Below are positions 14,333 to 18,276 of a DNA stretch of 64,000 bases, piece by piece. The stretch spans positions 385,711 to 449,710 of the forward strand of contig NZ_SOCA01000002.1 of NCBI RefSeq assembly GCF_004364345.1, in the 5' to 3' direction. The notes below the pieces were generated by a model, which made no database searches, was not told the origin of the DNA, and saw only the letters and a program-made list of their open reading frames with translations. Within the stretch, counting starts at the first letter, position 1; each line of letters opens with the position of its first letter. The DNA is from Prosthecobacter fusiformis (lineage in GTDB: Bacteria > Verrucomicrobiota > Verrucomicrobiia > Verrucomicrobiales > Verrucomicrobiaceae). A program made the translations under genes and the position numbers.

Positions 14333-15883
14333 TTAGTCCAAAGAACGTTTTGGAGCAGCAATCCGCACAGGATCTCCGGCCCCTGGTTTTTTGGGAGCAG
14401 GTGGTGTCGGTAAATTGAATCGCTGCACTTCATAACCAGTCACATTCACCGAAAGGTCCAATTGCGCGAGGAATTCCCAGGTAGCGGATACACCAATGTC
14501 ATCGGCAATTTTGCGTGCTTCCAAATAGGTGTCAAAGGCATCCGCCATGACCTGGAATACAGCCACACCTTGGGTATCCCCTTTGATCTGGCGCATGAGA
14601 CGCTGATAATTGGAGCCTTCCGCACGCATTTGATCCAGTGTTTCTCCACCGCCAGCTCTCGGTGTGAGGGCCAATTGAATGGCTGTACTTCCAGGGCGGA
14701 TGGTTGGCTTGATGGTGTAAGAACCGCTCAGAGTGGGGCTTGAAGCTGCACGCTCTAGCATGGCCTGGAGCTTAAATGCGTCGTAAATCACTTTGCTGCG
14801 GCTTTTGTTTTTGATGCTGTCCAGTCCGGCCAGATCCTTCACAAAATAACTGAGCACCTCTTTAGCACCTGCTTTGACTTCCACGGATTTAGATCCGTAA
14901 CTAAAGTTGATTTTGCCTCCGGCCATGGCCGCTTTGATCGTCGGTTTGGTGGGGTCCTTGGATGGATCAAGAGCAGTCCATTTACTCAGGTCGGCCTTCG
15001 TGGCTGCAATCACTGCGGTGGTAACAGCAGGCAGACTGGATTTGAGGGTCACCGCGATGTCGCCAAGCGCTCCTAAAACAGCTTTGTTTGGCTGCAAACC
15101 TGCCGCAGCGAGGTCTTTGTAAGCGACAGCGACTTGATCCATTTGGAAATTGCCTGCCAGAGGCGAAATTTCAGGCCAGGCCTGCTGGGCGGCAGGGGCC
15201 GTGCCGAAGACTTTAGTCAGCATCGGCAGAAATGGGTCAATCCTGACCTCTTTATACTCCAACTGACTTTTTACTTTTTCCAAGCCATCAATAATCGGTT
15301 TGATGAAAGCTTCGTCATTGAGGAAAAGTACGCCTTGCCTGGCCACCAGCACACGAGTTTCGTTAGGCTCCGCAGGATAGGGACGGGGATTGGGCAAGCG
15401 TACAAAGGTTGGCGCAGGCGGAGTATAGACCGGGGTTTCGTCTAACAGGCTTTTAAGACGTTCAAGCTCAGCCAGCATGGCATCTGTCTTGGCCTTTTCC
15501 TCTTCCCGTTTCTTTTTAGCCTCATCCAGTTTCTTGCGGAAACTGTCGAGATCCATGAACTCCATCTGCTTGGCTACCGACGTGGTGTCAATTTTGCTCA
15601 GTTCTTCGGTGACTTTCTGGAGTTCGATCTCGGCTATCTTTTGGTCTTCCTCCAGCTTTTTCGGATCTTGTGGCAATGGCGGCAGTTGCTTGATTTTTTC
15701 CACCATTTCTTTATGCTGCTCCTCGGTCACCGGGGGCAGGTCTGAAAGGATTTTATTAACGGCAGCAGCGAGGCTGATACCGACCATCACCATCACGATA
15801 ATGAGAACACCCACGACGTTCGTCATGGTGTCCATCAAAGCGACGAAGGGCAGTTCCTGCTCCTCATGTTTGTGTTTGGACAT
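14333..15883 (-). CDS. ExbD/MotB-like single-span subunit B with long periplasmic domain
   Basis: A 516-residue inner-membrane protein. The N-terminus has the ExbD/TolR/MotB architecture: a short cytoplasmic tail, then one span (about residues 11-36) with the key Asp18 in LPFVALMDTMTNVVGVLI, the position that carries protons in this family. Residues about 55-150 are charged coiled coil; a Pro-rich linker (TPPAPTFVRLPNPRPYP) leads to a large periplasmic region of about 340 residues that I do not recognise and that has no OmpA-like peptidoglycan motif. It is the third gene of the operon, 15 bp after the first ExbD-like gene. It probably forms part of the rod of a proton-driven motor with the ExbB-like protein. 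Much longer than ExbD (about 140 residues). Confidence 0.7.
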   Translation of the reverse strand: MSKHKHEEQELPFVALMDTMTNVVGVLIIVMVMVGISLAAAVNKILSDLPPVTEEQHKEMVEKIKQLPPLPQDPKKLEEDQKIAEIELQKVTEELSKIDTTSVAKQMEFMDLDSFRKKLDEAKKKREEEKAKTDAMLAELERLKSLLDETPVYTPPAPTFVRLPNPRPYPAEPNETRVLVARQGVLFLNDEAFIKPIIDGLEKVKSQLEYKEVRIDPFLPMLTKVFGTAPAAQQAWPEISPLAGNFQMDQVAVAYKDLAAAGLQPNKAVLGALGDIAVTLKSSLPAVTTAVIAATKADLSKWTALDPSKDPTKPTIKAAMAGGKINFSYGSKSVEVKAGAKEVLSYFVKDLAGLDSIKNKSRSKVIYDAFKLQAMLERAASSPTLSGSYTIKPTIRPGSTAIQLALTPRAGGGETLDQMRAEGSNYQRLMRQIKGDTQGVAVFQVMADAFDTYLEARKIADDIGVSATWEFLAQLDLSVNVTGYEVQRFNLPTPPAPKKPGAGDPVRIAAPKRSLD

Positions 15884-15898
15884 AGGGTAAAAGAGACT

Positions 15899-16798
15899 TT
15901 AAGATTTGGTTCCCGCAGGGGGCGTAGGAGCGGGAGCACCTGCTGCAGGTGCCGGAATTTTCCCTCGAAATTTATCGAAAAGTGCAAGATCAAGCTGACC
16001 GCGGCCCGGGATGGGGAGTTTCCCCACACGGACTTTATAGTCTGCCTCTGCACGTCCAGCACCAGCATTGAATGCCGTCTGGCCGTCGTCGCGAATCAGG
16101 AAAAGAATGAGCGAGTTCTTGTCCTTTGATACTTCAGTGAGAAAATGATTGTATGCGACATCGGCGACCACCACGCTGGCGCTGGCACTGAGCCGATAAT
16201 CCTGGTCATCCCAGGCTCCCAAAACTTTAAGTGAGCCTGAAGAGCATTCCACAAAATAGACTTTAGTCGTCTCAGGCATGCCGGAACCGGAAGGTTGTAC
16301 CACTACCGGAGGCAGCTTTTTACTTTCTGGAATCTTCCGCTTCTCCAGTTCGGCTGTTAAAGCAGCAATTTCCTTCTTTGTCTCTTTCTCCTGACGGGTC
16401 ATGCCATCAATTTCCGTCATCAAATCATCAAGCTCCTTCTGGAGCTTCATGCTGATCTCTTTATTTTGTTCCTGAAGTTCCTTGGAGGAGCTGAGCAATT
16501 TGCGGAGATTAACGAACCTCTGCTGCTTGTCCTCCAGGTTTTTTTGGACTTCCTGAAGCTTGACCAGCATTTGCTCCACTTTAACCTTCTGCTCCTCCCT
16601 CTCTTTGAGTTCCTTGAGCATGTCCTTATGCTCCTGGGCCATCCTGACTTCCTCCGCTGTCCTGCCCTGCGTTTGTTGCGACTGGGCAACGCAGAGCACG
16701 ACAATGATAAGAATGAGGACGCCGATCAGAGAACACAGAATGTCCAAGAAGGGAATGAGAAGAATCTCATCCGTTCCTTTATGACGTCGTTTAGCCAT
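15899..16798 (-). CDS. ExbD/TolR-like single-span subunit A with coiled coil
   Basis: A 299-residue protein with a basic cytoplasmic start (MAKRRHKGTDE) and one span (residues 12-37) holding Asp19 in LIPFLDILCSLIGVLIL, the conserved proton-carrying position of ExbD/TolR. Residues about 45-155 form a strongly charged coiled coil, followed by a Pro-rich hinge and a compact periplasmic domain (about 175-275) with VYFVECSSG and ILFLIRDDG segments that I cannot assign. The C-terminus is Pro/Ala-rich. It lies between the ExbB-like gene (56 bp upstream) and the second ExbD-like gene (15 bp downstream). Its coiled coil and domain differ from the neighbour's, so the two are not recent duplicates. Confidence 0.7.
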   Translation of the reverse strand: MAKRRHKGTDEILLIPFLDILCSLIGVLILIIVVLCVAQSQQTQGRTAEEVRMAQEHKDMLKELKEREEQKVKVEQMLVKLQEVQKNLEDKQQRFVNLRKLLSSSKELQEQNKEISMKLQKELDDLMTEIDGMTRQEKETKKEIAALTAELEKRKIPESKKLPPVVVQPSGSGMPETTKVYFVECSSGSLKVLGAWDDQDYRLSASASVVVADVAYNHFLTEVSKDKNSLILFLIRDDGQTAFNAGAGRAEADYKVRVGKLPIPGRGQLDLALFDKFRGKIPAPAAGAPAPTPPAGTKS

Positions 16799-16854
16799 GG
16801 AAAATCAAAAAGAGTGAAGACGTAGCTGAAGAGGAGGCTGAAGGAAAAACCGGA

Positions 16855-18276
16855 TCAGTCGTGCTTGCTGAACCAGCCTTTCTTTTTGACCTGATGAATA
16901 AGGATCTGTTTGCCACCCAATTCGGTGAGAACATTGTTGAGACCCTGAATGCCAGTAGCGAGTGCACGCGTATAGTCCGTCGTGGTCTTGACGCTGTCTT
17001 TGATGGCACCCGTCATGTCTTCGCGCATGCGATTCACGGCAATGGCGAACTCGGCATCCACACGTTCCTGATGAGCGGTTGCGCGTTTGTCAAGGTTTGC
17101 CGCCTGCTCATTGATGCGAGCGGAAAGTGCATTGAGATCCACCAGGAATTCTTTCTGTGCCAGGGCAACCGCACGCACCAGTGTTTCCATGACGCCGTTG
17201 GTGTCACCGCCGGCAATGCTGCCTCCATCATTAAGGCGTGGAAGCAAGATTTCGTTACAGAAAGCGTCGATGTCATTCAAGCAGTCGTCCTCACTCTTCA
17301 TCATGGAGTTCATGGGGAAGTTGAGAAGCATGGCGAGAACGAGGCCGAGGAGCGTGGCATCAAAGGCTGTGCCCAGACCGCTGGTCACTGCGTTGATCGA
17401 TTTCATGATCGCCGTCACGTCTTCGACGTTGGCAAAGTTCATGCCGCCGATAGCGTGGGAGAGACCAAGCACCGTGCCGATGAATCCGAGAATCGGAATG
17501 GCCCAGAGGAAGGCTTTCAGCAAGGTGAACGAACCACCGATACGCATGCTGTCGATATCCGACTGGCTAGAAAGCATGTTGGTGACATCACCGACATTTT
17601 GCTTCACTTCGAAGAGCTCCAGCGCTTTACGAATCCGGTTGACCATCATGCTGTCACGAAGGCGAACTGGAAGTTTGTAGAGGTTGTCAATGAAAGTGCT
17701 GACGTTTTGAGCATTAATTTCAGAGCCAAGTTCCCATGGCAGCACGTCCAGCAGAAGGGCCTCACGCTGATGGCGAAGCTTTTTGAACTTCAAATACAAG
17801 ATGGCCATCGCCCATGTGAAGAACAAGGTGTTGGTGAAGCTCACCAGCATGTGCTTGTAAAACAGCGATGCAATGAACTGCATCCCTGTATAGTCGGCAG
17901 GTGAAGTGCCTTCGGGTGCCTGGAATGGGTAAAGAATACCCACCCATGCGAGGAAGAGAACAAAGCCAATGCCAAAACTCAGCAAGGGATTCGGATTGGT
18001 AGGATCGGTCTCCTCCCAACCGCCTCGCTCCTGACGATGCTGCTCGAGCTCGGCGGGATTGGGCTGCTCAGTTCCTGAAAACTCTTCAGAACCGCTGCTG
18101 GTTTCCGCAGGCGGGGTAAAGCCGGAAGGGGAAGGAAGTCCCGATGGTGGCGGCAGATCCCCCAGGGTGGCAGGGATCGAAAGTTTGCTATTGCAGCCTG
18201 GGCAACGGACGACTTTCCCGGCCATGTCTGGCTCGGCCTTCAACTGCATGTCACAAGACGGGCACTTAAATTTCAC
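16855..18276 (-). CDS. MotA/TolQ/ExbB-like proton channel with N-terminal zinc ribbon
   Basis: A 473-residue inner-membrane protein. It opens with a zinc ribbon (C5, C8, C25, C28 in CPSC and CPGC pairs), then a Pro/Ser/Gly-rich linker to residue 95. Spans lie near 98-117, 143-163, 252-275 and 299-322. The last two carry the MotA/TolQ/ExbB signature (IPILGFIGTVLGLSHAIGGM; VTSGLGTAFDATLLGL). A charged helical C-terminal tail (360-473) is predicted coiled coil. The start is GTG at 18276 with GGAG about 8 bases upstream. ExbB is about 240 residues, so ribbon and tail are additions. First gene of the operon with two ExbD-like partners; no TonB, Pal or flagellar gene is nearby. Confidence 0.8.
   Translation of the reverse strand: MKFKCPSCDMQLKAEPDMAGKVVRCPGCNSKLSIPATLGDLPPPSGLPSPSGFTPPAETSSGSEEFSGTEQPNPAELEQHRQERGGWEETDPTNPNPLLSFGIGFVLFLAWVGILYPFQAPEGTSPADYTGMQFIASLFYKHMLVSFTNTLFFTWAMAILYLKFKKLRHQREALLLDVLPWELGSEINAQNVSTFIDNLYKLPVRLRDSMMVNRIRKALELFEVKQNVGDVTNMLSSQSDIDSMRIGGSFTLLKAFLWAIPILGFIGTVLGLSHAIGGMNFANVEDVTAIMKSINAVTSGLGTAFDATLLGLVLAMLLNFPMNSMMKSEDDCLNDIDAFCNEILLPRLNDGGSIAGGDTNGVMETLVRAVALAQKEFLVDLNALSARINEQAANLDKRATAHQERVDAEFAIAVNRMREDMTGAIKDSVKTTTDYTRALATGIQGLNNVLTELGGKQILIHQVKKKGWFSKHD

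Follow-up and report, generated by a model that had tools for sequence, protein, structure and literature searches.

In current motor models, two equivalent aspartates (Asp), one on each rod, take turns. The ExbB-ExbD1-ExbD2 sets combine one channel with two ExbD-type genes and are tied to TonB and nutrient uptake. Here we compare systems of this kind with a three-gene operon from Prosthecobacter fusiformis, which encodes a channel subunit (B) and two rod proteins (rod 1 and rod 2). The stretch of DNA analyzed, referred to as the window, comprises 64,000 nucleotides (contig NZ_SOCA01000002.1, positions 385,711 to 449,710), and coordinates are those of the window unless a locus is named. The gliding motor of Myxococcus xanthus, AglRQS, also has one channel and two rods; both rods are said to carry a membrane Asp, and in the accessible part of a review it is left as unknown whether they form homo- or heterodimers (PMC9389320). 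According to the accessible part of another paper, AglQ and AglS are short (162 and 194 amino acids) and match PF02472 (PMC3169522). For the Planctomycetes-Verrucomicrobia-Chlamydiae (PVC) group, 'heterologous tolR-like' pairs have been described, and TPH-vWA pairs, which are said to have one Asp per monomer, have been proposed to sit within the pentamer (PMC12204202, accessible part); the pair of its Fig. 4a may or may not belong to the window's family.

The trio proposed in an initial annotation, made from the sequence letters alone, is present in the window: one ExbB/TolQ/MotA-like gene and two rod genes, each rod with its membrane Asp as described there (D19 in LIPFLDILC of rod 1 and D18 in ALMDTMTN of rod 2). 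All three genes lie on the minus strand in the order B (16855..18276; 473 amino acids, GTG start), rod 1 (15899..16798; 299 amino acids) and rod 2 (14333..15883; 516 amino acids), with gaps of 56 and 15 bases. B is a member of the MotA/TolQ/ExbB superfamily (PF01618, E = 3.1e-11, 43.5 bits against a cut-off of 22.9) and has a conserved place before the rods. Across several phyla, B is retained together with two rod genes that are homologous to each other. In our reading, the locus belongs to the superfamily of ion-driven 'pentamer round a dimer' motors as a divergent member and encodes an obligate motor of B, rod 1 and rod 2 with a mixed axle; we give this reading a probability of about 0.7.

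As in AglRQS, one MotA/TolQ/ExbB-type channel gene is combined with two rod genes. Unlike the rods of AglRQS, window-type rods are long coiled-coil proteins that go undetected with PF02472, and in distant relatives the Asp is mostly absent from rod 1; Asp in both rods, as in AglRQS, is found in the window but not in 56 of 64 distant loci. The ExbB-ExbD1-ExbD2 sets likewise have one channel with two rods, but no TonB was seen beside window-type genes. The pairs of PMC12204202, as far as its accessible part describes them, resemble those studied here in belonging to the PVC group and in being heterologous. In contrast to TPH-vWA, no vWA domain was seen in window-type rods, and the distant rod 1 proteins are mostly without Asp; vWA was found neither in the window rods, nor among the 25 most-matched Pfam families of the relatives' rods, nor in ten neighboring genes scanned. 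With AglR plus AglQ and AglS, and ExbB plus ExbD1 and ExbD2, as precedents, the rarity of two rods per channel that the initial annotation implied was overstated. B weakly matches ZorA models and the rods weakly match ZorB. Zorya defence (ZorA/ZorB) was considered and rejected, with a best NCBIfam score of 26.5 bits against 100 and no other Zorya gene among the scanned neighbors.

The rods had been described as unrelated outside the membrane span. Their profiles (63 and 50 rows) align over 254 columns with hhalign (probability 99.4, E = 1.6e-21), and profiles built from the family only align over 146 columns (probability 96.8, E = 2.8e-10). Because the profiles align over 254 columns, sequence comparison identifies the rods as old paralogues and full-length homologues, contrary to that description, and both structural models show an end domain that is probably TolR/ExbD-like. 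The alignments for structure used 63 of the 76 available rod 1 rows and 50 of the 63 available rod 2 rows, the window included. The rod 1 model (AlphaFold2, mean predicted local distance difference test score (pLDDT) of 85) consists of a membrane segment (residues 1-45, 16664..16798, with the D19 codon at 16742-16744 and a span helix at residues 15-45), one continuous predicted helix that would form a coiled coil (residues 48-154, 16337..16657, most blocks with pLDDT 93-96) and an end domain of beta-beta-alpha-beta-alpha-beta order (residues 168-277, 15968..16297). The rod 2 model (mean pLDDT 71) has a membrane segment (residues 1-48, 15740..15883, with the D18 codon at 15830-15832 and valine at position 14), a coiled coil, and the same end domain as rod 1 but split by an insert. 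The first strands of this domain lie at residues 156-190 (15314..15418), the insert at residues 191-415 (14639..15313) and the remainder at residues 416-486 (14426..14638). The part of rod 2 that had been described as a large unknown domain is thus an insertion that interrupts this end domain. About 160 residues of the insert (roughly 206-364, window 14792-15268) are mostly modeled with low confidence and are missing in several genera that have versions of 364-391 amino acids.

With a second-look aligner, TolR (5by4) ranked first for the rod 1 end domain (Z 7.0, 3.0 Å, 86 residues), and ExbD chains gave Z scores of 5.0-5.6 (8p9r: Z 5.6, 2.4 Å over 71 of 74 residues). For rod 2, TolR 5by4 ranked 20th, after coiled-coil entries (Z 8.2, 3.2 Å, 93 of 105 residues, model residues 156-473), and ExbD 8pek gave Z 6.9. 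A sequence search of the PDB with the rods returned mostly coiled-coil proteins, and neither window rod matches any Pfam, NCBIfam or PADLOC family near its cut-off; the match of NCBIfam ExbD_2 to rod 1 is very weak (E = 0.079, 13.4 bits against 123). The TolR/ExbD reading of the fold is sensible because of the rods' place in the operon, and we lean towards treating the modeled end domains as TolR/ExbD-like.

Rod 2 was matched in 55 of 59 genomes of the window's family, so the operon is not a chance arrangement. In the 32 family loci fetched, rod 1 and rod 2 are adjacent in 31 and B stands in front in 30; at one locus (L043) B is missing at a contig end, and another (L070) is a broken second rod 2 fragment in a genome whose operon lies elsewhere. 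From the 55 matching genomes, 47 operons were used below, with eight left out (seven not read, and L027 too short for rod 1). More distant relatives were collected by scanning species genomes with the B alignment. This gave at least 558 relatives. The best 80, which come from Planctomycetota, Verrucomicrobiota, Kiritimatiellae, Lentisphaerae, Myxococcota or 'Deltaproteobacteria', and a few other groups, were joined by five further distant loci to make a set of 85 (L085 and L119 are the same contig and are both counted, and L156 was kept despite its short rods). The three-gene set is found beyond the family as well: in 74 of the 85 loci the two rods can be read next to B, 64 by a strict motif and 10 by a looser reading. 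Among the other 11, six are cut by contig ends and five have B and rod 1 with no rod 2 in the following 5 kb.

These five loci (L127, L129, L130, L132 and L135) are all from planctomycetes. In a tree of B, L129 stands apart, whereas the other four group with Gimesia records in a single clade. When the five genomes were searched with the rod 2 profile, each proved to encode rod 2 at another place (E = 1.6e-100 or better). Neither B nor rod 1 was seen beside the unlinked rod 2 in the stretches read from the five genomes (only about 3 kb in the genome of L132), and in two genomes where the genes share one contig of more than 7 Mb, B and rod 1 are separated from rod 2 by about 0.66 and 1.4 Mb. Thus homologues do not routinely encode a single rod, given pairing beside B in 74 of 85 loci and an unlinked rod 2 in all five cases. 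Two lone rod 2 genes far from the channel gene (L212:4364-5470 and L213:4039-5136) lie beside a bioD-like gene, as judged by eye.

We also looked at co-occurrence in 61 genomes from the family of genome G442. Counting strong matches, 15 genomes have both rods, 45 have neither, none has rod 2 alone and one (G642) has rod 1 alone, on a contig that ends at rod 1 (Fisher p = 2e-13, uncorrected for kinship). A strong match was defined as E below 1e-45, a threshold set after seeing the gaps in the distributions (2e-50 to 1e-25 for rod 1 and 2e-61 to 1e-23 for rod 2). In the phylum round G442, rod 1 was matched at E 1e-25 in 5 of 149 genomes, all five of which also have rod 2, and none of 20 genomes searched for rod 2, out of the 144 without a rod 1 match, had one at E 1e-15; at most 17 candidates per genome were scored in this phylum-wide rod 1 search, so its absences carry no weight. 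As the rods co-occur in the genomes where they are unlinked, the pair is kept even where linkage has been lost.

Both window rods have the single span with Asp of ExbD/TolR rods (D19 and D18). Beyond the family, the two rods differ. At the rod 1 site, the 64 strict-motif loci (the motif left this position free) have serine in 56 and Asp in 8, and the ten looser loci have alanine in L086, cysteine in L088, Asp in L197 and serine in the others. Rod 2 D18 is invariant in the 50-row alignment, a result that is partly built in since the strict motif demanded both Asp residues; it is also present in the ten looser loci (found with a pattern allowing D, N or S) and in the five unlinked cases found by profile search. 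No rod 2 without D18 was met among the distant loci with enough sequence. In the tree of B, Asp of the distant rod 1 proteins falls in three separate places (L156; L158, L179 and L182; L187, L191, L194 and L198), and with a sample of the window's family included at least six changes between serine and Asp are needed (a quick tree with some long branches). Thus the window, with Asp in both rods, has by its sequence the less asymmetric state; in the majority of distant relatives, rod 2 is the only rod with the canonical Asp. Two short two-rod versions with one Asp-less rod (L087:3008-9414 and L088:6629-10655) lie upstream of fabZ- and lpxA-like genes, as judged by eye.

Rod 1 is without Asp in the majority of distant relatives. 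Homodimers of rod 1 would therefore be expected to be inert in them, leaving rod 1 plus rod 2 as the probable working axle. This bears on the idea that one channel serves two motors with different jobs, in which B would be paired with a homodimer of either rod 1 or rod 2. Asp in both rods of the window's lineage would suit that arrangement, and the accessible part of the review of AglRQ/S leaves both homo- and heterodimers open (PMC9389320). However, a homodimer of rod 1 would lack the canonical ion-binding Asp in 56 of the 64 distant loci, which have kept rod 1 all the same; the co-occurrence of the rods across the 61 genomes also speaks against two separate motors. We regard this arrangement as very improbable.

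Within the window's family, the membrane core occurs in two types. Type a, that of the window, has D19 in rod 1, V14 in rod 2 and H142, N149, A255, H274 and A307 in B, within the type-specific membrane core of B (residues 95-325, 17302..17994). Type b has S19 in rod 1, D14 in rod 2 and R142, E149, V255, Q274 (once V) and T307 in B. Distant channels, with few exceptions, have R142, V255 and F-D-T-T at 305-308, and most of the distant relatives share with type b an Asp at position 14 of rod 2. Given this resemblance of type b to the distant relatives, type a is probably the derived state. The types of rod 1 and rod 2 are concordant in all 47 operons (34 type a and 13 type b), and the type of B is concordant with the rods in all 31 operons compared.

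The types do not follow the history of the rest of the proteins. On the tree of the soluble parts, at least 8 type changes are needed (47 rows), and 7 on each 43-row tree. The approximately unbiased (AU) test rejects a single type b clade (p = 1.3e-5 for the soluble part of rod 1 and 2e-54 for that of rod 2; 43 rows, 10 of them type b). The AU tests used 43 of the 47 rows, with the long branches L057, L058, L066 and L067 left out, and the L070 fragment was kept out of the trees. A quick tree of the three membrane cores (31 rows) gives one split between a and b, with a Shimodaira-Hasegawa-like approximate likelihood ratio test (SH-aLRT) support of 100; L047 and L048, which have long N-terminal frame extensions, were left out of a 29-row B alignment and kept in the 31-row sets. 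The type signal is uneven, being confined to about residues 85-336 of B (with 18 type-distinguishing columns in B), 1-60 of rod 1 and 1-48 of rod 2, and near zero elsewhere. Among independent pairs of starred branches, rod 1 and rod 2 are concordant in 7 of 7 (p = 0.016). Within types, identity is 82-92% in the span compared to 60-73% for the rest of the rod. Between types, the close pair L061/L068 has 92% identity in the rod 2 end domain, 54-58% in the rod spans and 54% in the B core, and L053/L052 has 84 and 81% in rod 2 and 46-51% in the spans. The ribBA gene is 95.8% identical to that of the window in L041 (type b) and 95.5% in L039 (type a).

The soluble part of rod 1 sits between two of the cores in the DNA and has a history that differs from theirs, and the C-terminal part of B has next to no type signal. 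Thus, mere linkage fails to explain why the cores travel together; selection for fitting parts does. How the cores came to change together is a further question. Exchange of ready-made cores seems likelier to us than repeated parallel change, for example after a change of coupling ion. The latter could account for four-fold sites that show no clear within-type excess of identity, and it would spare us a multi-breakpoint exchange that avoids the parts between the cores, which is awkward. However, it requires 18 B columns and many span positions of both rods to have arrived at identical states at least 7-8 times, and in the core tree there is a single split, with support of 100. The nqrF gene, a rough marker of a sodium economy, was over the cut-off in none of the 47 genomes, so that this marker provides no correlate and is uninformative on sodium economy as the cause of the switch. 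Overall, we hold repeated parallel change to be rather unlikely.

Another explanation for the same data is a motor of B with a rod 2 homodimer, in which rod 1 is an accessory (a plug, an assembly factor or a transducer) that also touches the core. Only in rod 2 is the Asp always seen, the large variable insert is confined to rod 2 in the window's family, and some planctomycetes encode rod 2 elsewhere with rod 1 still beside B; all three favor this reading. However, rod 1 and rod 2 are homologous over their full length and share the pore-type helix, rod 1 has Asp at the exact rod position in several separate lineages, and changes of type in its span go together with those in the cores of B and rod 2. 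In addition, there is no strong rod-2-only genome among the 61. We think an accessory rod 1 unlikely.

We predict that the mixed-axle motor would work as follows. B would form a pentamer in the inner membrane, and its pore would hold one helix from each rod side by side. Ion flow via D18 of rod 2, and in the window's lineage also via the gained D19 of rod 1, would turn the ring round the rod pair. Through the long coiled coils, the two end domains would reach the periplasm and may there anchor to or pull on an envelope partner. The drive ion may be the proton, and the end domains may bind the wall or another envelope part. B begins with a CxxC...CxxC zinc-ribbon-like N terminus (residues 1-36, 18169..18276), which would face the cytoplasm; its four cysteines are invariant in 29 of 29 aligned family members, and the pattern occurs in many, not all, distant relatives. 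One canonical Asp as the usual state, with two in the window's lineage, is the best reading of the sequences.

The mixed-axle motor is the simplest account because of the pairing, the co-occurrence, the Asp-less partner and the joint switching. The heterodimeric, asymmetric rod proposed in the initial annotation has thus gained indirect but strong support (from pairing, unlinked co-occurrence and joint core switching); the window itself has the less asymmetric state, and two-rod systems have precedents. Several observations count against our interpretation. PF02472 (ExbD) did not match the window rods at E up to 1 and is not among the 25 most-matched Pfam families of the 63 rod 1 or 50 rod 2 proteins (in the homology searches of PMC12505986, as its accessible part describes them, ExbD and TolR are typically below detection). 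The Z scores of 7.0 and 8.2 are middling and other folds score nearby, and Foldseek alone gave no significant match for the rods (best E = 1.3e-2 and 9e-2). At E 1e-15, rod 1 is found in 24 and rod 2 in 16 of the 61 genomes, with both in 15; the weak extra matches (E 1e-26 to 1e-16) are presumed to be other coiled-coil or rod proteins. Rod 1 does carry Asp in the window and in 8 of the 64 distant loci, which means that a single Asp per motor is no general rule. For B and the rods, no more than 5 independent starred pairs are concordant, too few to decide (p = 0.06), and the joint switching also fits a B-rod 2 homodimer motor with a core-touching rod 1 accessory. Finally, four-fold sites are saturated, so that recombination and parallel change are indistinguishable by them, and dating the core switch by these sites was ruled out for the same reason. 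A wider claim can be made more tentatively, at somewhat less than even odds: that this is a widespread motor with an obligate heterodimer axle and ancestrally one canonical Asp (5:1:1), whose three-protein ion path is exchanged as a unit between relatives, toggling between one-Asp and two-Asp states with the periplasmic parts staying in place.

The window operon has nusB upstream and genes for an aldehyde dehydrogenase and an iron-containing alcohol dehydrogenase (Fe-ADH) downstream, as identified by a hidden Markov model (HMM) scan. No TonB, TolA or Pal was seen beside the operon among three window neighbors and seven genes of relatives scanned, with neighbor clusters judged by eye and the search confined to the locus. 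The lack of an adjacent TonB, Pal, OmpA-like or Zorya gene noted in the initial annotation therefore holds for the neighbors scanned. When neighbors were clustered over 116 loci, the only set-wide families were B (99 loci), rod 1 (85) and rod 2 (81), counts that fall below 116 partly because antisense frames displaced genes, and no fourth gene recurring across lineages as a client was found. Judged by eye, the clusters that follow in size (8-21 loci) represent antisense frames, single-lineage synteny or common PVC families, the latter oxidoreductase-, pyrroloquinoline quinone (PQQ)- and sulfatase-like and varying in position and strand. A UvrD-like helicase is near the operon in six loci (L120, L121, L123, L134, L180 and L193), in one of them after rod 2 (L121:9079-11166, where the HMM scan identified it).

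The end domains that look like TolR/ExbD, and the membership of B in PF01618, could also indicate an ordinary but divergent TonB- or Tol-type energizer. However, neither TonB, TolA nor Pal was seen among the adjacent genes scanned, no fourth gene recurs across lineages, and the genome has seven other ExbB-type loci that adjoin short ExbD-type genes (by eye). We judge such an energizer to be quite improbable. The genome of the window has nine PF01618 loci over the cut-off, the window operon included. At one (L007:1117-2961), an ExbB-type gene is followed by two short ExbD-type genes, and at another, an ExbB-type gene adjoins a short ExbD-type gene (L001:2026-2442) whose span, TPLLNAILLLL, has asparagine at the expected Asp (both by eye). 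The ninth locus, on another contig (L199:4656-11032), is a second set of a channel plus two rods (304, 273 and 312 amino acids) with Asp in both rods (FQDI and LLLDTLCNVFG), which adjoins proteins of 216 (GYF-like, by eye) and 1010 amino acids; its gene order is repeated in L200, and a similar set is present in L202.

One channel with two rods is already known. In the literature searched, outside which most subscription papers fall, we found no description of the Asp-less rod, the window's rod family, the joint switching or the unlinked pairs. A motor that is conserved in several phyla and has its canonical Asp on just one of the rods would test the two-Asp model directly: either one Asp suffices, or another residue (e.g., D14 of rod 2) substitutes. 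The natural one-Asp and two-Asp states, together with the matching channel residues (142, 149, 255, 274 and 307), amount to a list of mutations to try. A mixed axle would also bear on the question of homodimers or heterodimers in AglRQS.

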